Shown: one piece after another, positions 23,776 to 50,058 of the stretch
Layout: the number at the start of each line of letters is the position of its first letter
How positions within the stretch are numbered: position 1 is the stretch's first letter
Assembly: GCA_030272585.1 (NCBI GenBank)
Contig: BSYQ01000007.1
Location: 3,910,001-3,974,000 of the forward strand
Origin: Bryopsis sp. KO-2023
Taxonomy: Eukaryota; Chlorophyta; Ulvophyceae; Bryopsidales; Bryopsidaceae
Length of the DNA: 64,000 nt
Direction of reading: 5' to 3'
Notes under the pieces: model-generated
The model's input: the letters and a program-made list of their open reading frames with translations, nothing else
Databases searched by the model: none
What the model was told of the DNA's origin: nothing
Program-made: the position numbers and the translations under genes

Positions 23776-25132
23776 ATGTCCAGGCGGGCCGCCGAGAGGC
23801 TCCTGTGCCGCCGATCAACGATCTGGGCTTGCGGACATCAAGACGGATGGTCTGTCATAACTTATTCCGCCAAAGGCACGCGTTGCACCTGGGACGCCGC
23901 GCTCCCTTTCGTTGCAACCGCTTCGAGCCAGGCAAACACACTCGGCTCCTCTCGGACCCCTGCCAGTACTTCACCAGCCACGCTGAAAACGAAGCGTCTT
24001 TTTCACTCCAATCCGGATTCTAGAAGGATGTTTGGACTCGATCTCCTCAGAGGCGGCGTGGGGGCCTGGGATAGTCTCAACTATGCTGCATGCAAAAATG
24101 TGTTTCCGCTTCAACATCGCGCGGCGAAGTCAATCAGGGGTACGACAGCGTTTCCCAAATCGTCCACCTCAACGCAGCCGGACGACGGAGGCCTGTCCAA
24201 AACCAGGACTGTGTCGCCAGGCATTGGATTCGTTGCAGGTGCTGTGGGGAGCGTTGTTGGTGTGGGAGGCGGCACCCTCATCGTCCCCATGGTGTCGAAT
24301 TTTTGTACATCTATTCCCCAACGTGTGATCTCAGGAACCTCGCTGGCGGCCGTCATTTCCACTGGTAGGAGTGGCTTCGTCTCGTTGACCAGGAAAAATT
24401 AATATATTTGTCGAACGAAAGTTCTGGAGGCGATTGACGATGAAAGCATGTTTTGGTTGTTCAGGATTGGTCGCATCATACACATATGGTGCAAGCGCCT
24501 CCATCGATTACAGTGCTGCAGTCCTGGTGAGCACCGCCGCCATGTTGGGCGCGCCTTTCGGTGCCAGGATGACGATGGTTCTGGACAACGCCAAACTGAA
24601 ACGGATTCTGGGGTATTTTCTGATGGCGGCGGCGGTTCTGGTCCCTTTGAAATCCTTGTTTATGCAAGATGATATGCTTGCTTCGAACACTGCCGAGAAT
24701 GCATCTTCCACGGACAGCTCGCCGCCACAGCCATCCACAGAAAATCCTTGGGATCTCACGTGGCCTGGTTTGAGTCAAATGACTCTGCTTTCAGGGACGG
24801 GGTTGATTGCAGGTGTCGCTTCTGGACTGTTGGGAATCGGGGGTGGGACGATAGTGACGCCTTTATTGGCGATTGCGACGTCTATGCCGCAAACGCACGT
24901 CGTGGGTACTTCCTTGTGCGCCATGATTCCTCCCTCGATAGTGGGGCTGATTCAGCACCACCGCCTGGGAAATGTTGATTGGCGTCTAGGACTGGGGTTG
25001 GCGCTGGGGACGATGATTGGTGGGTTTGCCGGTAGCAATTTGGCTTTGACGATTCCTGATAGCGGGTTGAAGGGGGTGTTTGCAGTTGCGATGTTTTCGT
25101 TGGGCCGATTGACCCTAGCCAAGGGAAAATGA
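23776..25132 (+). CDS. TauE/SafE-family membrane permease, organelle-targeted
   Basis: Two exons (23776-24364 and 24465-25132) give 418 residues. The family moves sulfur-containing or organic anions across membranes. Two homologous halves each open with the family signature: VGVGGGTLIVPMV and LGIGGGTIVTPLL. About seven hydrophobic segments can be seen, separated by an acidic Ser/Pro-rich central loop. The first 145 residues are not part of the family core: they are Arg/Ser-rich, poor in acidic residues at the start (MSRRAAERLLCRRST), and probably carry the protein to mitochondria or plastids. The start at 23776 is the first ATG in the frame, which is open upstream to 23719. The gene lies head to head with the SET-domain gene, 253 bp apart. 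Confidence 0.85.
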
Positions 25133-26167: not shown

Positions 26168-29100
26168 TCATCTCCTCCCACCCCCCATACTCCATCGATC
26201 GACTTCCCCAGAATCTCTGTCGCCTCCGTTGTCGCTTCCACTCTCATCCGATTCTTCGAAAGAATCGCTCATCGGATTCACAGCATTCCCCACAGCGACC
26301 GGCAACTCCACTTCAGCCTCATTTGCCACTCGCTCCCCAACGAACAGCATATCATGGGAAGGCTCTGATTCTTCATGCGGGGCGTCATCCCCCAACACAT
26401 CCTCATCACTGTTCAAGTCGATCAAGTTCACTTCCGGCGGGGGGGCAGGGTTCGGGAACTCGCCCTGCTCCCCTCCACCCCCCCCACCATCCTCCTGCAC
26501 CCCCTCGCTCAGCGAACCAGACTCTCCGCTGTCCCTTCCAGCATCCACATCGTGGGAAGAATCGCCCGAGGCCATTTCCATGTCACTGTGCCCATCCTCC
26601 CGGTCCTCCTCCTCATCAAACACCAGACGGTTCAACCGCAACGGGTCGACTGGCCTTGCATCCGAGCTGGGACTCCTCTGAGCTGCCTCATCAGGGGGGC
26701 TGACATCATCCCGAGGTCCATCCACCATCTCCACATCCTCGGGTTCTATCGGTGTTGGCCTTTCCTCTTCCGTATCCACATTCATGTGGTCTGGCACGCT
26801 CCTTCTTGGTTGTGGCAGTGGGTTGGAGCTCGGCCTTGCCTCTTCAGTGATTCTGTCATCATGAGGCTCAGCGTTGCCCTCAAGATTAGACCCATTGCCT
26901 GCACTTTCATCGATGTGGTTCTGCATCAAATCTACTGAATTCCGATCCCCAGTCAAATTCGCCTCCGCCCCACTGTCTTTCACAGCATCACCCAGTGACG
27001 CATCCTGTCGGGGAGGAGTCGCAGAGGGAGGGTCTTCCGGCTGATTTCCAGGAGGTGCTTCCGATGGTGCCCCAGGCAGTTGTGGATCATCTCCATCCAT
27101 CGGGGTGGAGACGATTGTCTTGATGGCACCCCCATTGCCCACCGAGGTCAGATCAGCAGGGGGTGGTTCATCGCTGGCATACCCGCTGTTCTCCACCCGG
27201 TGGTGGCCCTGTGACGTTTCTCCAGCGACAGCTTCATTCTTGTGATTCAACTCATCCTCAGTCCCCAGGGAAGGCTTGGCAGCTTTGGTAGATTTTCCTG
27301 AGGAGCCCCCCCTTCGTTTGCACTGGATGCACCAGGAGGCGAGGCCGCTCTTGGAGGACCTGTTGCGATGGAAGCTTGCGGCTTCTTTCATGACACCGCA
27401 ACTCATGCACTGCTTTTCGGCTACCTTGACCGTGAAAGATGGGGTGGTGGCTTGGGTGGCTGGGGTAGCTGGGAGACTTGGGCCTATGGTCAAAGCGGAG
27501 GAGGACGTTTTGGTGACTGATACATTTAATATATTTATGTAAATATTTTTTCATATATTTACATACTCACCCATAGTTTCACACACACATACACCTTTGG
27601 CTGCCCACAAAGGCCTCTCAATGACATGGGCGTTTTTTTTTCTTTCTATTATCATATTTCTTTATAAAGATATAAAGAATACGGGAAGGAACCAGCCCCC
27701 TGCAGTCCTCCTCGCATAAAGTGTGATACAGGAAAATTCATGTGACAAAAGAGTAACACTATTCCTAGCAGGCCATCCTCAGACAGCCTTGGAGCGATAG
27801 TGGCTGTGTGAAACGAAGTGCCACCACTGCATGAGCAAAAACCCTGATTTCTGCCACACACAAGCTTCTGACAATATCCAACACCGACACCTGCAATTTC
27901 TTTCCTCTGCATCGGCTCAACTACAAGAACCCCACCTCTCTCCCCTTCGGATTGTCTCATCACAGGCACAATGGCAGTCAATCCAACTCCACTACTGGGC
28001 TCGTCGACTCCTCCTTGATCTCCTCCTTGCACTACCCCTTGCTCCCCCCCCTCTGGCGAGGGCTGTGCAGTCCCTTGCTTCTGAGCATTGCTCAAAATCA
28101 TGGCTCGATTCTTGGGGTCCACAGTTATTTTCCGCCTCTTCCTGCGTGTGTATGGTGGCAGGGTCACCTCGCTGAAAGGCTTTTTCCTGGCGTCCGGGGA
28201 GCTTTCTGCAGAGCTCAATTCTCGCAGCTCGCTCCACAGCACCTCCCCACCCCCAGGGTCGGTCATCCGTCTCCCTAGTCCCTTCCATTCATGCACAAGG
28301 AGGCGAAACTCCAGCTCAGTTTCTCCCTGCTTGACCCTGCCAAATCGAAATATTGGCTTAACCACAGTCTATGATGTTGAGCCCCCCCTGCCCCCCCCCT
28401 CTCTTTTTCCAAAACTTTTCGAGGATTCCTGTTGGTGTATACATACCTCCTCTTTTTGGCTGAAGCTCTGGTCTCCCTGGTCATTTTGTTGCAGTGCCGG
28501 CACACCACGTTGACCCTGTTCGGATATTTTATCGATTTGATGAACGAAAGGGAGGTCCTCAGCTCCCCACACCGCACACACCGCCGCCTGGGAAGCCTCC
28601 TCGTGGTTTTCTTTCTTTTCCTGCTGGGCATCAGGTCCAAAACTTTGCAGCACTCTTTGCACCAGGCGAACATCCCGCTGGGGACCCCTGGGTTCGGGTA
28701 AAAGTCCATCGTCGCTTTGTCTTTCCCACACTTGGAGCATTTTTGAATGGAGAGAGGGGACAGCCCAAGGCAGCAGTCGGAATCGGGGGAAGTCACATCA
28801 GCACCAGCCTCCGACGTGAGATTGTCTGTGGGCTCCGTTTCCCACTGAAACAAATCGGTGGTTTCTTCGGTTTTCATTTTCGGGCCCTGTTTTTGTGGTG
28901 GCTGGGTTCCCGGAGGGGTGAGGCTGGGGCGATTCGGCCGTTGGGAAGGCCGGTGTCTGACGCGGCCGCTCCTGACTCTGCTGTTGGTGCACAGCTTGCA
29001 CCAAGAGGAAAGTCGGGAGGATTTGGAATTGTCTTTGTTAAACTCAACCCAGGGCTTGAGCACTCGACAACATGTGCAGATTTTCTCCTGGGGCATTCCA

Positions 29101-31697
29101 GGGTCGGGGACCGGGACAGGAGCCAGGTTCAAGCTCGTGGGGGTGGTCGCCAGGGCAAGCTCACCTGGAAAAGTAAAAAAATAAAGAAATAACGATCTCC
29201 GCACAATTTTTGTGGGTCAATTTTCTACAGGCACTCCTGAAGAAAAAAAAAAGGCTGGGAGGGGCAGCTGAGTTTGAAATTTCTAGCCCTTTGCAGAAAA
29301 AAACATATCGACCAACAGTGTGTGTCCACCAATACCCTTTGTGGCTTCCGATGATTGCCTCCCCTTTTTGGCCTTCTTAGATTGCGCACGGTCTGCACCT
29401 CCGGGATCCTTTTTCACTGGCCCCATACCTTCGCAAATTCGGCACCTGGAGCGAAGCCCAGTGCCTTTGGATTTGTCTTTCCTGTACATTTCGGCCCCCC
29501 TCAAAAGCTTGCACCCTGAGCAAAACTTGACCAACATCCCGGATTCGTTCCTGACCAGACCTCTCTTGCGATCTTCAGGGGCAAGGCTCCTGAAATCAGC
29601 TGAGCTATTTCCCATACCATCTTCAGGAAATGACTTGGACCCCCGTGGCATGGATGTTTCAGGCAGGCTAGCTCCTCTCTTCTGGCCACCCTTTGGCCGT
29701 TGAGCAGAATCGAACAGCCCACTGAGAAAAGCCACGGGATCTTTTCCACCCCCAGCATTGTTGTCGGCTTTCTTCCCTGTTTCGGTGGGTTTACCCGCCT
29801 CCCTCTCAGACGCTTTCCTCCAGCACTCCCTGCACTGCGACTTCGCTCCATCTCGACCCTCCTTCGGAAACAGGGACTCCGCCTTGGTCAACCCACAGTT
29901 AACGCATTTCTTGGAGTCCGAGGAGCCTCCCGACGGGCCTTCCTCTGCTCTTCGACTTGAACCCCCTTTCTTGGCCAGCATTCCATCAAACTCGTAGCAC
30001 ACGTTACACCAACCCAGCTGACCAGGCAGATCCCCTCCTTTAGGCTGGAAGCTGTCGCCAGATTTCACAAGCCCACAGTTGGTGCATGACCTCTCCTGCA
30101 AGTGCAGAGACGCCGATCTCGTGACTCTGCCCCCAGCCCTCCCTCCAGAATTCGACCCTAACCCCGCCGCCTCCTCCCTGGCTCCACCCCCCAGACCAAA
30201 CTCGGAAGCTTGTTTCCTATCCCTTGAAGCTCTCTTAACCGAGGTGCATGCCTTGCATTGAGCGGCAAACCCCGTTCTGTTGTATCTGTCCGGATGGAAC
30301 TCCAACATGGGCAGGTCCTTGTTGCACCGCGTGCAAGCCTTGGTGTTCACTGTGCGTTTCTTCTTGACGCAATCCCTGCATCGGATGTTCATGAAAGGCT
30401 TGGAACTGGCCTCCGTAACGAAATCGTCCATCGACCTCATTTTCAAACAAGCAGCGCACATCGCCTGGCCTGCGGAGCTCAAAGGCCCTTGAAATTGCCT
30501 CGTTTCGCTTTGTTTCCTGGCGCTGCATGTCTTGCAGATCCTGGACAGCCCCGAGGATTCCATGGCAAAACTGGCGGCTTCTTTCTGCTCCCCACAGTTC
30601 AGGCACATTCGCCTCGAGTTTGCCCCTCCTCGTTTTTTCCATGCCAATTTCTCACACTCGTGGCATCTGGACCTGATTCCCAACGGCTTCGATTTGTCTT
30701 TTGAAAAGGCACTATAATCTTTGGACACTTTGCATGAGGAGCACACTTTGAAACCTGCCCCCCCTACTTTTTCCGCTTTTGCCCCACCAGCACCGCCGCT
30801 TGCGCTGGTGGGGGGTTTCTGAGAGGGGGGAGGCCCGAGGAGTGCTGCTGCTTCAGGGAGGCTGCTGCAAGCCATGCAGTGGTTGGAATTTTTTCTGTGA
30901 AATTCTGTTTTTGGTTTTCTGACCGAACACTTGGAGCACAGCTTCAAGCCATCGGAGGAGGAGTTGTTTTTCTGGTGTTGGAGGGGGAAGAGGGCCAGGT
31001 ATTTGGACACCACCACCTGTGGGATGCCATAATAGGTGGCATTCACCTGCAAGCAAATGCAGAAAAGAAGGTTGAGAAGAGAGAGGCACCAAACGACGTG
31101 TCACGGGTTGGAGCACCGCAAGCCGAAACGCCCAAACTACGCGGCTTCCGACAATTACGACGCGGCACATTGACGAGGAAAGTAACCGACGAGGCCGCCT
31201 TTCGGGAGGGGGAGGGGAGGTAGGGTGAGGGGGAAAAAAAAACACGATGGAAAAAGGAAAACAAGAATTTCACGCCCGCTCCGCGGAGGCAACGACGATC
31301 TCATGCAACCCACCTCCTGCGCCACCTCCTCGGGACTGCTCAGTCTCTCGCAGACCTCCGCCAAAATCTTGGCGAATCCAGAAACTGGGATGACTTTTAA
31401 CCTGGTGCCCCCCGGGTGGGTCACCAGCGACACGTCGTAACCCCCGTACGCCCCGGGGTCCTCCTCCACCAGCACTTGGTGGGTTTGCACCCACCTTCCG
31501 AGTTTGCCCAGTAGATCCATGGTCTTCGCGAGCTCCGGCTCCTTCTGCCCTCGAACCATGCCATCGTAACACCCCAGCGTGCGCAGGATGTCGCGGAACT
31601 GGGCGTCCGCGACGACGTCGTCCGGTGTGTTCAATTCGACACCCTCCAAGAACTCGGCGAACAGTGCCTCCGGATCAGCGTCGGCGTCGTGCGCCAT
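26168..31697 (-). CDS. Giant protein with twelve C2C2 zinc-knuckle repeats
   Basis: Five exons join in phase: 31697-31314, 31046-29336, 29164-28447, 28336-27936 and 27516-26168, giving 1392 residues. Residues 1-155 form an acidic N-terminal domain I do not recognise. Twelve copies of a zinc-binding repeat follow, at about 163-190, 228-260, 275-302, 324-355, 365-396, 447-479, 507-537, 636-667, 727-758, 839-871, 893-924 and 979-1011. Their pattern is K/R-x-C-x2-C-x3-K-x4-F-x(7-12)-G-L/F-x3-C-x2-C. Repeats 2-5 are nearly contiguous; the rest are separated by Gly/Ser/Lys linkers. The last 380 residues are disordered and very acidic, with NLIDLNSDEDV. The single C2C2 unit resembles the N-terminal knuckle of some phage and plasmid HNH proteins, but no nuclease motif is present here. 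A nucleic-acid- or chromatin-binding scaffold is the natural guess; the function is unknown. Confidence 0.8.
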
Positions 31698-33512: not shown

Positions 33513-34307
33513 CTACGCCTTCCGTCGCCCCTCTTGCGGATTCTTCAGTTCGCGATCCCTAGACCGGCTCGGTCCCCCGGCACCTTGTGGGAGCGGCCGT
33601 TGGGTCGCCGACGGGTGAAGTTTAAATCCAAATACTCTGGGGACGTAGGTGCATGTCGGTTTGGCAGGGCGTATCGACGGATAAGTCAAGAGCATCAAGT
33701 GGGGAAAAGTCGTGCCGAAATAAGCCCCGTCCACGTTTCCCTGAAACTTCGATCGAGGATAATAGATGTCCTCGCATTTGGGGCAATAGATCTTCACCGT
33801 GCTCTGGCGTGGGTTATCCGACGTCCCTACAGCCAAGCACGCCTGCCCGTTGCAATGCACCCGCGGGCACCTCCCGAACTCGCAGTTTTTGAATTTGTCC
33901 AACATCTGACTCAAACCCCTCGTCGTCAAGATGAACCGCGCGTGGATCAATCCGTACAAGAGCTCGGCTGCGGTCTCGATCAGCTCGTGCTGCTCGTCGT
34001 TGAAAGCTTCAGATGTGTGCGATTCGGAGTCGAGAATTAAGTCCAGCGCGTAGTCGTAGTAGGGCACTTGAGCTGCCAGCCCGCTCAGGTTGAACTCGTC
34101 CTGCACGTAGTCCTCATCCACTTCGCAAAAGAACTCGTTGCCTTTGAGCGTGCAAAACCACGAGATCCACGACGCCTCTTCTTCCTCATCCTCCACCGAA
34201 CCAGATGGCCCTTCGGACTCCTCCGTTTCAGAATCCGATATCAAATCGTCCTGGAAATGTGGCGTGCGGCGCGCGCCGTCCAAGCGGTAGTTGTAGCCGT
34301 GCGACAT
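33513..34307 (-). CDS. CKB: Casein kinase 2 regulatory beta subunit
   Basis: An intronless gene of 264 residues. CK2 beta dimerises through a zinc finger and holds the two catalytic alpha subunits. The start [14 protein letters not shown] is the first ATG and precedes an acidic Ser/Glu stretch (24-46) of the kind that is autophosphorylated. The core begins [22 protein letters not shown]. The zinc ligands are Cys147 and Cys152 in CPRVHC and Cys175 and Cys178 in [11 protein letters not shown]. The C-terminal alpha-docking segment is present ([10 protein letters not shown]). Higher-plant CK2 beta proteins have an N-terminal extension of about 90 residues; this one has only about 45. The C-terminal 30 residues are basic. 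Confidence 0.95.
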
Positions 34308-45686: not shown

Positions 45687-48600
45687 GGTGGCCTGCCTGG
45701 ATTCTGCTGAACCGACCTCCATTTGCTTCAGTTCATTTCTTCGAAACCCAAGCCTGGATCCCCGAAAGTTGAGAAACCCCGATTGCTGATTGCATAGATC
45801 GGCATGATAGTTTGTGTATAAAAATATATTTTAAGCTGTGGAGGGGATCTTTTTTTTTTTCCTCCACTATTCCTATCACCTGTTGTTTCTAGTTCTTGCC
45901 ATTAGCTTCAGTCATTTCTGTGTAATAAAATATACGATCCCCTCCAAATCTTAAAAAAAAACCAAAGGGGTGGTGGTCAGGTTGTGTAGGCCTTGTTTCA
46001 TTTTTAGCCCATCCTTTGATGAAAGGGAGGGAGTGAATGTCCTTTTAATTGTGCCGAGCACGTGCATTAGGATTGATGCTGCAGTTTAGTGTCAATATTT
46101 GCTTTCATCGAGAGAACCAACAGATCAATCAAGCGGTCATTTGTTTGAATGGGGTGTTGCCTTCTGAGTAGGAAATAATGGGGGCTGTTGACCAGCGATT
46201 AATCGCAATATTGTTGTTTTCATTCGACAGCGTCTGACCAAAAACGAGGGTCGATTCAAAGCTCAGTAAAACAGTTTTGTCGAATCTTGCCATGAGGAGA
46301 TCTCGTTGCTGTCATGCACTTGTGCGGTGGAGGGGGAAAAAATGATCAACTGGGTCGAAACAAGGGAAAGAAATGTTTTCCACAAAAAGCTTTTTGAAGA
46401 ACTCGTTTAAGAAGGTTTACACTATGAATCCAACCAAGACTGCTAAAAGAAATGCTGTCTTTCTTTTCCACTTCATGTCAGCCCCCCTCACCCCCAATTG
46501 CACCAAGAAAAAAGAAGACGAAAAAAAAAAAAGAAACCGTAAACTGATGTCTGACATACACATGCTATCTGTGTACATACATGTTTGGTTATTTGATGTT
46601 TGAACCACTCCCCTTACAAAAATCCACCAGGAAAGATCCCCAGTTATCAATGCAACACTCATACATACACAGATTGATTGATTTCTTTCATATCCTACCC
46701 AAACAGCCTCCACATTGCCACATATTACTAATTTGTATAGCCGCCTTAATATGCCTGTTCCAAAATGAAAAACCTCAATAAAAAACAGGCAGTCTTCCTT
46801 TCAAAAAGGCCTCTACGATGAAAACGAATCGATCTTTAGGTAGATACATCTGACAATTTCCAACCCAGCCTTAGCCAAGGAGGAAAACAAATCCAACTGC
46901 AGGATATGCACCACATCAGCACTACCAATCCCAGTAGTTTTATCTTTTATCCCAGTGCTATTATTTTCTTTTAAATTTTATATTCGAAGGAATATTGTCT
47001 ATAAATATTTAGCCATCAGATTCCCAGGAAGCCCAAATTTTTGCTGTGGATAGATCACCGAGGTGTTAGCTATTATTTGCCCTTTCCCTTTTCCCTCGGA
47101 TGCACGACGATCAACCCTCCCTGAATTCCCCTGCCCAATCTTTTCAGTGAATTTCTTTACATTATTCCACGAATGGAAAGACACCCCCACCCACCCACCC
47201 ACCAAATCGCTGGTGGATTGGATGTCCGAAATAGGCGGCAGACAAAGAACCCCACAAACGATCCAGTTCAAAAAAGTAACACGCAAGCGAAGGCCAACCC
47301 TCTGGAAAAGAAATTTCTGGGGGAAAGAAAGGGGTAGGTGCATCAGGCTGGAGGAGCAGGGACATCGGCAGGATGAGGTGGTGGGTCAACACGTCTGACT
47401 AGGAGTCCCCCCCACCTATGACTTCCTACATCCCAAAACTGACCAAAATTATAATGCAAAAAAAAAAGGCTCCGGATAACGAAAGGGCAGTCGCAAACCA
47501 AGATTGAAAAACAAAAAAGTAGAAAAAAAAGTTAGATAGAGAAAGCGAACACACCGAATCTCCCAAATTAAAAAGAAAAAAAAAAAACACATATCCTCCA
47601 CGAAAGGTACGACATCCTTCCCCTCCTCCCCCCACAAGAAAAAAAAAGAAAAAAAGAAAAAAAGAAAAAAAACCCACCCCAGCAAAGATCGAAAAGCATT
47701 ATTTCATATTTGATAACTTTTGTGTGTTTTGTTACCCTCCCTTGTCTTTTTTTGTGTTTTTTTTGTTTTTTCGGTATTTTTTGTTTCTCTCTATCACCAT
47801 TGCCATATCTCTTTTTTTTGTACACATAAGAAAAAGAAAGAAAGAAAGAAAATGCAAAACGTTTGTATGACTGACTGTCGTTTTCTCTGTTTCTTGGACA
47901 GGATCTTTTTCCTTCTCTGTTGTTTTTTTCTCGACGGGATGTTGTTCCAAAGAGACGTAGCAGTACATAGAAATTACAACGGAAAAAAAAAGAAAAAGAA
48001 AAAAACACCATCCCTCGGGATTTTTTTTTTCTCTCCTGTAAAATAAAAAAGACCACCACCCATCCATCCAGACGACCGACTGCCTCTCTCTACCTCTCCT
48101 GATACAGCTTGTTTTTCTTTTCTTTTCCTTTTTTTTCCTTTTTTACCCTCACCCCCCCCCCCCAAACCCTCCCTCCCCTTTTCCTTTTCACTTCTTTCTT
48201 TCTCCAACCAGAGAAGCACTCAACAAAGAATACAATCGCAGCGAATACTGATATAGTTTTAAGGAAAAACCAAAAAAAAAAACCCGAAATAAAAGACAAA
48301 AAATACATTTTTGTTTCCTTTGCTTTTTTTTTTCCCTCCCCTTCCATTTACTTTTTTGTTTCTAACCTCTTGGCCTTTTTCTTTTTTTTCCCTTTTGAAC
48401 CGAACCAAATTTCCTTGACCCCCTTTCGTTTCCCCCCTTCCTTTCCAAAAAAACCCATCAAACCTCAAACAACCCTATTATGCTCCCGTGAAAAATATGA
48501 CTGCCACCCAAAAAAACCAACACCGCTATATCAAGATATTTTTTTTAAAAGAAAGAAAAAAAAAGAAAAGAAAATCCTTCACCAGAAATTATATAATCAT

Positions 48601-48945
48601 TTTTTTTTCCGATCCCTTACATCCAAACCGACCACATTTCACCATTACACTTTCCTCCCTCATTTTAATTCTTTTTTTTTTTTTTTTTTTTGAACCTTTT
48701 CTTCGTCTCTAACCCCCTTTCAACTGGCTTGCCCCTCCACCTTCCCACCCCAAAAAAGAAAAAACTCGAAAAGAAATTAAAAAAAAGCCCCTCCCGGACA
48801 AAACGCTCACGGACGAAGAAAAAAAAAAAAAAAAGGGACAGAAAACCCGGTTTCGTGAAATCTTCCATTTCTTTTCTTTTTTTTCTTTGCATTTTTGTGT
48901 AAAATATTTGGATGGATTTGATTTTTGATTTTTTGATTTTCGATT
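45687..48945. other. 3.3-kb intergenic region, strongly asymmetric homopolymer tracts
   Basis: No supported gene. The part from 47430 to 48940 is made largely of alternating A-rich and T/C-rich blocks, including a T run of about 22 near 48671-48692 and C runs near 48152-48163. ORFs in it translate to Phe, Lys or Pro strings and are not credible. Its right end adjoins the PP2C stop and should include that 3' UTR. Confidence 0.45.
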
Positions 48946-50058
48946 TCAGGTTGCAGCCGGTGGCTTGGGTGGTTGTAGACCCCCTATTAAGATGGTCATA
49001 TTATCGCACCCCACTCCTCTGGTGAGTTTTGGATCCGGAGCCAAACACTCGTTCAGCAGCTCCGCTCCTATTTCCGAATATTTCTTCCCCTGCTCATGCC
49101 TGGTCGCCACAAACTCCACCACCTGCTGATTGTCCATCACATCCCAAACCCCATCGCAAGCCAACACGAAAAACTTGTCCTCCTCTGACAAGTCCACCAC
49201 CTTGACGTCCGGCTCCGCTGTGATTATCTGATCTTTAGGCTTGAACGAAGAATTCCCCTTGTATTTGAGGTCGCCGATGGCTCGGGACAGGTTCAAGTTA
49301 CCGTTCACCCTGCACATTCCCGCGATTTCGCTCAAGAACCCCCCCGCCGCGACGATTCTAGCACGCTCGCGCTCCAGACTGGGCTTGTGGTCCTCCGACA
49401 GCGCCACTGCAGCGTTACCCCTGCACAAAACTCCACGCGAATCCCCCGCGTTCGCAATGTAGAGGGTTTTCCCTTTTTTCACCGCCACAATCGCCGTCGA
49501 TCCCGCATGAACCCCGGTTTCGCTGAACGCACCGCCCCCTTCGCCTTCCCGATTCCCGGGGTTGCCACCGTTGGCCGTGCCACCTTGCCTCCCTCCCGAA
49601 TTCGCAAACATCATCTTTCGCACCATGTTCAACTGTTTCAAGACGGCGTCCGTCGAACTCTGCGTTCCCCCCTCTTCCGTCGTTTCTGGTTCGTCGCACT
49701 CGGGCTTGTTTTTGAACTCCTCCAGCTCGGCGTGGTACGTAGAATCCCGCAGCATGTCGTCAATTCTGTGAAACACTTTCACCAGGGACTCCTCCACGTT
49801 CCCGGAGAACCCATCCATGGTCAACAGCTCCTTCGCCAAATGCTCCTGGCAAAATCGCGCGACTTCCGAGCCTCCGTGCCCGTCAAACACGCCAAATACC
49901 GACACCATGTCGTCACCCCCCTCCTCCCCGAAAACGACGTGGGCGTCTTCCATGTTCCGACGCCAGCCCTGCATCGACGCCCCTCCATATTTCACATCGC
50001 CTATTTCCCCGTCAAACGCCTCCTTTTCTGTTACTGGGGTCGACAAGTAAGCCCCCAT
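48946..50058 (-). CDS. PP2C-family protein phosphatase, predicted N-myristoylated
   Basis: An intronless gene of 370 residues. PPM/PP2C enzymes remove phosphate from Ser/Thr using two metal ions. Motifs in order: MQGWRRNMEDAH, VFGVFDGHGGSEVARF (metal aspartate), HAGSTAIVAV, IANAGDSRGV, ALSEDHKP, NLSRAIGDLKYK, FFVLACDGVWDVM and GVGCDNMTILI. The N terminus MGAYLSTPVTEK has Gly2 and Ser6, an N-myristoylation signal, and resembles the start of PPM1A/B and related plant enzymes. An unusual insert of about 70 residues at 110-185 is acidic and then Gly/Asn-rich (between the DGHGG and AGSTA motifs). The start codon is the only ATG ahead of the domain. Confidence 0.94.
   Translation of the reverse strand: MGAYLSTPVTEKEAFDGEIGDVKYGGASMQGWRRNMEDAHVVFGEEGGDDMVSVFGVFDGHGGSEVARFCQEHLAKELLTMDGFSGNVEESLVKVFHRIDDMLRDSTYHAELEEFKNKPECDEPETTEEGGTQSSTDAVLKQLNMVRKMMFANSGGRQGGTANGGNPGNREGEGGGAFSETGVHAGSTAIVAVKKGKTLYIANAGDSRGVLCRGNAAVALSEDHKPSLERERARIVAAGGFLSEIAGMCRVNGNLNLSRAIGDLKYKGNSSFKPKDQIITAEPDVKVVDLSEEDKFFVLACDGVWDVMDNQQVVEFVATRHEQGKKYSEIGAELLNECLAPDPKLTRGVGCDNMTILIGGLQPPKPPAAT

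Follow-up and report, generated by a model that had tools for sequence, protein, structure and literature searches.

A five-exon gene of the green alga Bryopsis sp. KO-2023 encodes twelve Cys4 knuckles and no detected nuclease domain

Gene BSKO_08429 and its knuckle array

The window analyzed here is a stretch of 64,000 nucleotides from the siphonous green alga Bryopsis sp. KO-2023. Its minus strand carries a gene of five exons with introns that are all GT-AG (Table 1). Splicing these exons reproduces the deposited 1509-residue protein BSKO_08429 (P0001) with every residue identical. Thus, the five exons belong to one annotated gene. An earlier sequence-only reading had placed a five-exon gene here, and its position agrees with the deposited protein, whereas the length of 1392 residues that it gave does not. 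That figure implies a different gene model, and the difference is most easily placed where exon 4 meets exon 5, the sole junction found to be ambiguous (one trial acceptor had 13 in-frame donors).

Twelve C-x2-C...C-x2-C units are spread over three exons, as that reading had held. Eight lie in exon 2, three in exon 3, and one in exon 5, and together they hold 48 spaced cysteine ligands. The four near-contiguous copies that it located at residues 228-396 are likewise present; the motif in its literal wording fits just 1 of the 12 copies. The four cysteines are invariant and the phenylalanine is nearly so, with lysine and glycine kept more loosely. With a relaxed knuckle pattern, P0001 gives 12 matches, compared with none in 4971 of 5000 composition shuffles and a single match in the other 29. 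Furthermore, a knuckle HMM made without the window's rows found twelve domains in P0001 (E 3.4e-52 for a search space of 1000); the best of 200 shuffled versions of the protein reached E 0.098. A profile built from prokaryotic and phage knuckles only recovered all twelve, ten of them singly at E<0.01; a profile from eight nuclease-associated knuckles matched the algal protein at E 4.9e-43. Taken singly, knuckles 4 and 11 were weak with one profile and knuckles 3 and 11 with the other (values in Table 1). A tree of 57 knuckle rows was mostly unresolved and neither supports nor refutes a single origin of the window copies, 11 of which it took in after a gap filter had removed knuckle 1 and some short partial matches.

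The array and its linkers are strongly basic (array pI 9.8). The acidic C-terminal tail proposed earlier is also present, and its LIDLNSDED stretch resembles a SUMO-interacting motif, a pattern that appears in 67 of 10,000 shuffles of the tail. For the N-terminal domain, no Pfam match was listed and a second copy was not found in the Bryopsis genome; AlphaFold modeled exon 1 alone, from its single sequence, with low confidence (pLDDT 47).

Table 1. Positions within the window of the gene, its exons and its protein features
Feature	Positions	Strand	Basis
Whole gene BSKO_08429, five exons, 1509 aa	26168..31697	-	spliced CDS identical to P0001
Exon 1, most of N-terminal domain (residues 1-128)	31314..31697	-	no Pfam match listed; low-confidence AlphaFold model
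Exon 2, rest of N-terminal domain, then knuckles 1-8	29336..31046	-	motif positions, splicing
Knuckle 1 (short, 24 aa)	30867..30938	-	motif and profile
Knuckle 2	30654..30743	-	motif and profile; modeled, pLDDT about 90
Knuckle 3 (E 0.0081 with one profile, 1.6 with the other)	30525..30605	-	motif and profile
Knuckle 4 (E 0.18 with one profile, 0.0065 with the other)	30369..30458	-	motif and profile; model incomplete
Knuckle 5	30246..30335	-	motif and profile; modeled, pLDDT about 88
Knuckle 6	29997..30086	-	motif and profile
Knuckle 7	29823..29906	-	motif and profile
Knuckle 8	29433..29522	-	motif and profile
Exon 3, knuckles 9-11	28447..29164	-	motif positions, splicing
Knuckle 9	28989..29078	-	motif and profile
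Knuckle 10	28650..28739	-	motif and profile
Basic, NLS-like linker RKRKKTTRRLPRRR joining knuckles 10 and 11	28581..28622	-	spliced protein
Knuckle 11 (weakest; E 3.3 and 3.6)	28491..28580	-	motif and profile
Exon 4, knuckle-free linker with basic stretch TRRKRRKI (NLS-like)	27936..28336	-	spliced protein
Exon 5, knuckle 12 and acidic tail	26168..27483	-	spliced protein
Knuckle 12 (top score among the twelve)	27320..27409	-	motif and profile
Acidic tail, residues 1130-1509, 23% D+E, pI 4.1	26171..27310	-	spliced protein
LIDLNSDED in the tail	26399..26425	-	SUMO-interacting-motif likeness

Relatives in phages and in the Bryopsis genome

No nuclease domain was detected in BSKO_08429 by Pfam, NCBIfam, or PHROGs, in line with the sequence-only reading. 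The Pfam scan of the 1535-residue window model (E limit 10, with filters that drop most matches above 0.1) listed no nuclease family, no LIM, C2H2, or GATA zinc finger, and no match to DUF6510 (PF20120) or Stc1 (PF12898); the NCBIfam scan of P0001 listed no nuclease family. The best match to PF02945 in the Bryopsis genome (E 0.6) lies elsewhere than in this gene.

The algal protein carries the Cys4 knuckle C-x2-C-x3-K-x4-F...C-x2-C of endonuclease VII/HNH proteins. PHROGs and profile matches tie the window knuckles to the finger parts of such phage proteins, which bears out the earlier claim that the knuckle is known beside phage HNH domains. The accompanying claim that it occurs there in single copies understates the numbers: single-knuckle relatives exist, but two to six tandem copies are frequent. 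The distinct phage and viral relatives number 16, with one to six knuckles each and at least two in half of them (8/16); P0004-P0006 have three or more. Nuclease sequence was also found in 10 of the 13 relatives scanned, and the three without it have two knuckles each. P0004-P0007, the viral contig L029 (six knuckles), phrog_1035, and phrog_2633 share the same Cys4 knuckle with its K, F, and G positions. The tandem period is 45-50 residues in the tight arrays of P0004, P0005, and the Bryopsis paralogue L013, against 41-49 in window knuckles 2-5. In P0004-P0007, L029, and the two PHROG families, N-terminal knuckles are followed by a terminal nuclease domain (PF02945 or HNH). BSKO_08429 differs from the phage endonuclease VII/HNH proteins in its twelve knuckles, long linkers, introns, and lack of a detectable nuclease.

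Like the algal protein, gp2 and gp3 of Gordonia phage Gibbles and gp2 of Jumbo have knuckles only and no nuclease by Pfam, but they are 104-134 residues long, with two copies and neither tail nor N-terminal domain. All three match phrog_5558 across most of its length. BSKO_08429 matches this family in seven stretches (E 6.5e-47), where 'Lar-like restriction alleviation' is a library label only. DUF6510, a domain without assigned function, scores above its cut-off against the second Gibbles gp3 knuckle (33 versus 26.4 bits) and below it against the P0007 knuckle.

At least three smaller knuckle genes lie elsewhere in the Bryopsis genome. L013 (four knuckles in a 386-residue frame), L012 (two), and L014 (one) share the module and have no Pfam nuclease, but their arrays are shorter than that of BSKO_08429. 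Two loci were kept out of this family count: C9:4345247 (E 1.86, one stop) and C3:4132454, which matches the nuclease part of phrog_1035 only (1.8e-13) and in whose 3.2 kb no knuckle was found (best E 7.1). Among 50,697 phage records, tblastn with exon 2 gave no match at E 1e-3, and L013 matched 26 records; L013 also matched 1 of 72,556 plasmids. Viral scans with query set A3 gave 127 pattern matches and 16 confirmed loci, those with a closely related algal set 48 and none, and those with P0004, L029, and Jumbo gp2 yielded 1, 2, and 1 loci, respectively. None of 70 matches from a pattern scan of genome contigs was confirmed.

The full model retrieved only the deposited protein itself among the best 7999 word-sharing candidates scored, and exon 2 alone retrieved nothing at E 0.01 among the best 8000. 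The earlier view that the architecture had not been described fits these data, as the best candidates of three protein searches included none besides the deposited protein, and such a knuckle array is not described in the titles and abstracts searched, which are part of the whole literature. The finger itself is known, but no second nuclear protein with twelve fingers, several exons, and no nuclease turned up in the searched data.

Predicted fold and possible role

AlphaFold, proposed earlier as a check of the repeats, modeled three of the four knuckles tested as beta4-alpha fingers, and knuckle 4 was modeled incompletely. Each finger would bind one zinc and fold as a treble clef. The best solved-structure match, of modest score, was the non-catalytic first finger of the restriction enzyme Hpy99I (3fc3/3gox). 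The likeness consists of weak sequence similarity, the predicted fold of one knuckle, and the Cys4 set; Hpy99I differs in having one such finger and one catalytic finger. Passages of a review (PMC4081073) describe zinc in HNH restriction enzymes as bound at structural sites that take no part in sequence recognition.

Since no cutting domain was found, the protein is probably a DNA or chromatin binder and not an enzyme. We propose, with a probability of roughly one half, that it is a nuclear twelve-finger protein derived from a nuclease, acting as a chromatin-associated nucleic-acid binder or scaffold. The building block would be the non-catalytic Cys4 finger that precedes the cutting domain in phage and bacterial endonuclease VII/HNH enzymes; the DNA-gripping accessory part would have been kept and the blade lost. 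A flexible, basic beads-on-a-string array with NLS-like linkers could bind nucleic acid multivalently. The sequence-only reading suggested that it might recognize nucleic acid modularly or serve as a scaffold. The target would most likely be chromosomal DNA, with low specificity per finger, and the acidic tail with its SUMO-interacting-like motif may recruit partners.

A doubtful alternative is that knuckle pairs act as LIM-like tandem fingers docking on an Argonaute or chromatin-modifying complex, an adaptor resembling Stc1 that would connect small RNAs to heterochromatin. By sequence, the module weakly resembles this fungal heterochromatin adaptor (PF12898; S. pombe Stc1, 2luy) in its two tandem knuckle-like Cys fingers and K..F/Y pattern. 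The knuckle profile found 2luy as its best PDB sequence match (E 0.0098; the two finger matches singly 1.3 and 1.5), and PF12898 matches recur across knuckle proteins, all below the Pfam cut-off: P0002 (3.7e-4), P0005 (1.1e-4), L027 (6.9e-5), Gibbles gp3 (1.4e-4), Jumbo gp2 (1.9e-4), and L013 (0.0026). Parts of one paper (PMC2875855) report remote Stc1 homologues in algae and finger mutations that break the Ago1 interaction, and parts of another (PMC4999995) describe LIM domains as tandem treble clefs. Stc1 itself, which engages Argonaute together with a histone methyltransferase complex, is small and has just a single pair of fingers. However, no match in the Bryopsis genome passed the cut-off (best 17.5 versus 24.8 bits; L013, 18.7 bits), and the strongly basic array and linkers speak against such docking.

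Zinc-knuckle proteins of other folds bind RNA, and the basic fingers and flexible linkers would also suit an RNA-binding scaffold for splicing, transcript, or RNP assembly. This role seems unlikely, as most characterized domains found alongside the knuckle carry the family label of a DNA nuclease. It is very unlikely that the annotation fused separate neighboring genes. Exons 4 and 5 can be joined in many ways, but the deposited protein joins all five exons, and exons 2, 3, and 5 share one rare module that genome searches located at few other loci (at least three). Moreover, because exon 2 alone holds eight knuckles, a long array survives any splitting of the gene. A metallothionein-like zinc store or redox/metal buffer exploiting the 48 cysteines is the most improbable, since the phenylalanine and, more loosely, the lysine and glycine between them are also kept, the copies are predicted to fold as domains, and storage gives no evident role to the basic linkers or the acidic tail.

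Beyond the proposed nucleic-acid binder, it is possible, though we suggest it only tentatively, that a eukaryotic lineage turned a phage-type nuclease accessory finger into a repeat module, multiplied it until one nuclear protein held twelve, and also formed a small gene family with it. Such proteins would be poly-finger regulators of chromatin or nucleic acid in a class of their own, a counterpart to C2H2 arrays, and their origin might resemble the fungal acquisition of Stc1. If so, a prokaryotic or phage nuclease finger would have been reused as a repeat-array module in the nucleus of a green alga, linking phage endonuclease VII fingers, the Hpy99I accessory finger, and the Stc1 adaptor, which are usually kept apart. 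Since nuclease-free arrays of the module occur in both phages and algae, 'HNH endonuclease' labels on these proteins can mislead.

The window gene and its twelve knuckles

A protein search returned one deposited protein, the 1509-aa hypothetical protein BSKO_08429 of Bryopsis sp. KO-2023 (91-Mb genome, 28 contigs; the window lies on contig 7), with 98% identity to our first model of 1535 aa. The spliced translation of the five exons is exactly BSKO_08429, and the deposited annotation supports a five-exon, single-gene model. The 1392 residues of the sequence-only reading thus give way to 1509; the shorter length may reflect the exon 4/5 junction, which was ambiguous in our own modelling (13 in-frame donors for one trial acceptor). 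Among seven window frames scanned with Pfam, five were recognizable genes and two had no match. The window's strongest strand skew (GC skew -0.37, 48001-50000) surrounds the PP2C gene.

Locations of the knuckle genes, their window neighbors and selected relatives (L numbers, fetched loci; C3 and C6, Bryopsis contigs)
Feature	Location	Strand	Remarks
Window gene, five exons	window 31697-31314, 31046-29336, 29164-28447, 28336-27936, 27483-26168	minus	GT-AG throughout; at least 12 knuckles
First Cys of K1-K12	BSKO_08429 residues 165, 230, 276, 325, 366, 449, 509, 637, 728, 841, 894, 1097
TauE/SafE exporter	window 24389-25129		Pfam
Casein kinase II beta	window 33516-34265		Pfam
Amine oxidase; PP2C; U1-type zinc finger protein			other recognizable window genes, Pfam
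Paralogue L013	L013:3757-4914; C3 ~439.8-440.9 kb (knuckles C3:439783-440346)	+	at least 4 knuckles, single frame
Paralogue L012	L012:1993-5409; C3:4659494-4659715	-	at least 2 knuckles
Paralogue L014	L014:3390-4673; C6:4292930-4293079	-	at least 1 knuckle
L055 frame	L055:1048-1794; C3:4132454, ~4132.4 kb	+	249 aa; nuclease part of phrog_1035, 1.8e-13
Gordonia phage Gibbles gp3	L066:1480-1842		two knuckles
Gordonia phage Gibbles gp2	L066:1842-2156		two knuckles
Viral-contig frame	L029:2254-4374		six knuckles, then HNH domain

The literal motif proposed from sequence matches one copy only. The claimed twelve Cys4 knuckles hold, as a relaxed pattern counts 12 in BSKO_08429; shuffling it 5000 times gave no match in 4971 cases and a single match in 29. 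All four Cys are conserved in every copy, in part because copies were recognized by them, and a Phe is almost invariant. Pairwise identity excluding the shared Cys averages 17% (range 4-39%), which indicates that the copies are old. Two knuckle HMMs whose alignments excluded window rows, run with a search space of 1000, matched the protein at E 3.4e-52 (15 rows; best of 200 shuffles 0.098) and 4.9e-43 (eight prokaryotic/phage rows; best of 200 shuffles 0.12). With either HMM, 10 of the 12 copies passed E 0.01 singly, the weak ones being K4 (0.18) and K11 (3.3) with 15 rows, and K3 (1.6) and K11 (3.6) with eight.

As had been claimed, no nuclease domain was detected. Pfam gave two chance-level families only for the window model (limit E 10; filters drop most matches above 0.1), and NCBIfam none for BSKO_08429. 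Its PHROGs matches, with E values summed over repeats, were phrog_5558 ('Lar-like', 6.5e-47), phrog_1035 (endonuclease VII, 6.7e-39), phrog_2340, and phrog_2633.

Relatives in Bryopsis, phages, and prokaryotes

Protein and family searches of the Bryopsis genome placed knuckles at four loci, with counts that are lower bounds. The L013 gene, which adjoins a diphthamide synthase gene, has tandem knuckles with a period of 49-50. Its relatives P0002 and P0003 (overall identity 55-60%, invariant columns mostly inside the array) have this array too, along with the C-terminal motif GLxxLVxAAExxS, and in a tree the fingers at three of the four positions group by position into supported clades. This pattern points to position-specific constraint, the expectation if every finger has its own job; L013 offers an easier test case than does the window gene. 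Neither L012 nor L014 has a Pfam domain at E 0.01; L012 also carries an AIDLT stretch and additional, degenerate CxxC pairs. A search of the genome for an endonuclease VII domain detected none (best E 0.6), and L055, with no knuckle within its 3.2-kb locus, looks like an ordinary HNH-type protein.

The finger itself is already known from phage nucleases. Searching with L013 retrieved P0004 and P0005, in which four and three knuckles, respectively, precede endonuclease VII (PF02945), and P0006 and P0007, in which the knuckles precede HNH. Fetched viral/phage loci held 24 knuckle frames, 16 of them distinct at 90% identity, with one knuckle in eight, two in six, three in one, and six in one, the last being the longest array outside Bryopsis among the sequences searched. 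Thirteen distinct frames were scanned for families (L033, L034, and L069 fall outside that set). A Pfam nuclease is present in four (L029, L035, L036, L040), six show only a PHROG endonuclease match extending past the finger part (L027, L031, L032, L042, L065, L067), and three show neither a Pfam nuclease nor a PHROG endonuclease stretch: Gibbles gp2, Gibbles gp3, and Jumbo gp2. These three are 104-134 aa long and align with phrog_5558 along most of the family length. The Gibbles pair is annotated as HNH endonucleases, yet neither Pfam nor PHROG stretches reveal a nuclease domain in it; annotated DNA primase genes flank it on both sides. DUF6510, a Pfam family of unknown function, exceeded its cut-off on one gp3 knuckle.

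Arrays of up to six and nuclease-free pairs therefore occur among phage/viral sequences. For a multi-exon, presumably nuclear protein that combines twelve fingers and an acidic tail with no detected nuclease, the sole match among those listed from the collections searched was its own deposited copy, and no title or abstract among those listed in literature searches described such a twelve-finger array.

Charge, Stc1 likeness, and possible role

The knuckle array with linkers has a computed pI of 9.8 and the tail (residues 1130-1509) 4.1; net charge is +3 to +9 in 11 of the 12 knuckle segments and -1 in knuckle 6. The NLS-like pattern K-[KR]-x-[KR] occurs six times, with two of the sites adjoining, a count not set against chance, and the tail contains LIDLNSDED, a pattern that arises in 67 of 10000 shuffled tails. 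We favor, at a probability of about one-half, a nuclear multivalent DNA/chromatin binder, in which the presumably zinc-binding array would grip DNA or chromatin and the tail would recruit partners.

An Stc1-like adaptor ranks second and is rather unlikely. Matches to Stc1 (PF12898) just under cut-off recur in knuckle proteins (P0002, P0005, L027, L065, L066, L068), which suggests that two such knuckles in tandem may constitute the Stc1 domain. The Stc1 study reports that algae have remote homologues and that Stc1 requires a LIM-like pair of fingers to bind Argonaute (PMC2875855); LIM domains are tandem treble clefs (PMC4999995). The relation is probably a distant link rather than membership, because the Pfam scan lists no Stc1 match for the window model. 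An RNA scaffold, ranked third, is less probable still.
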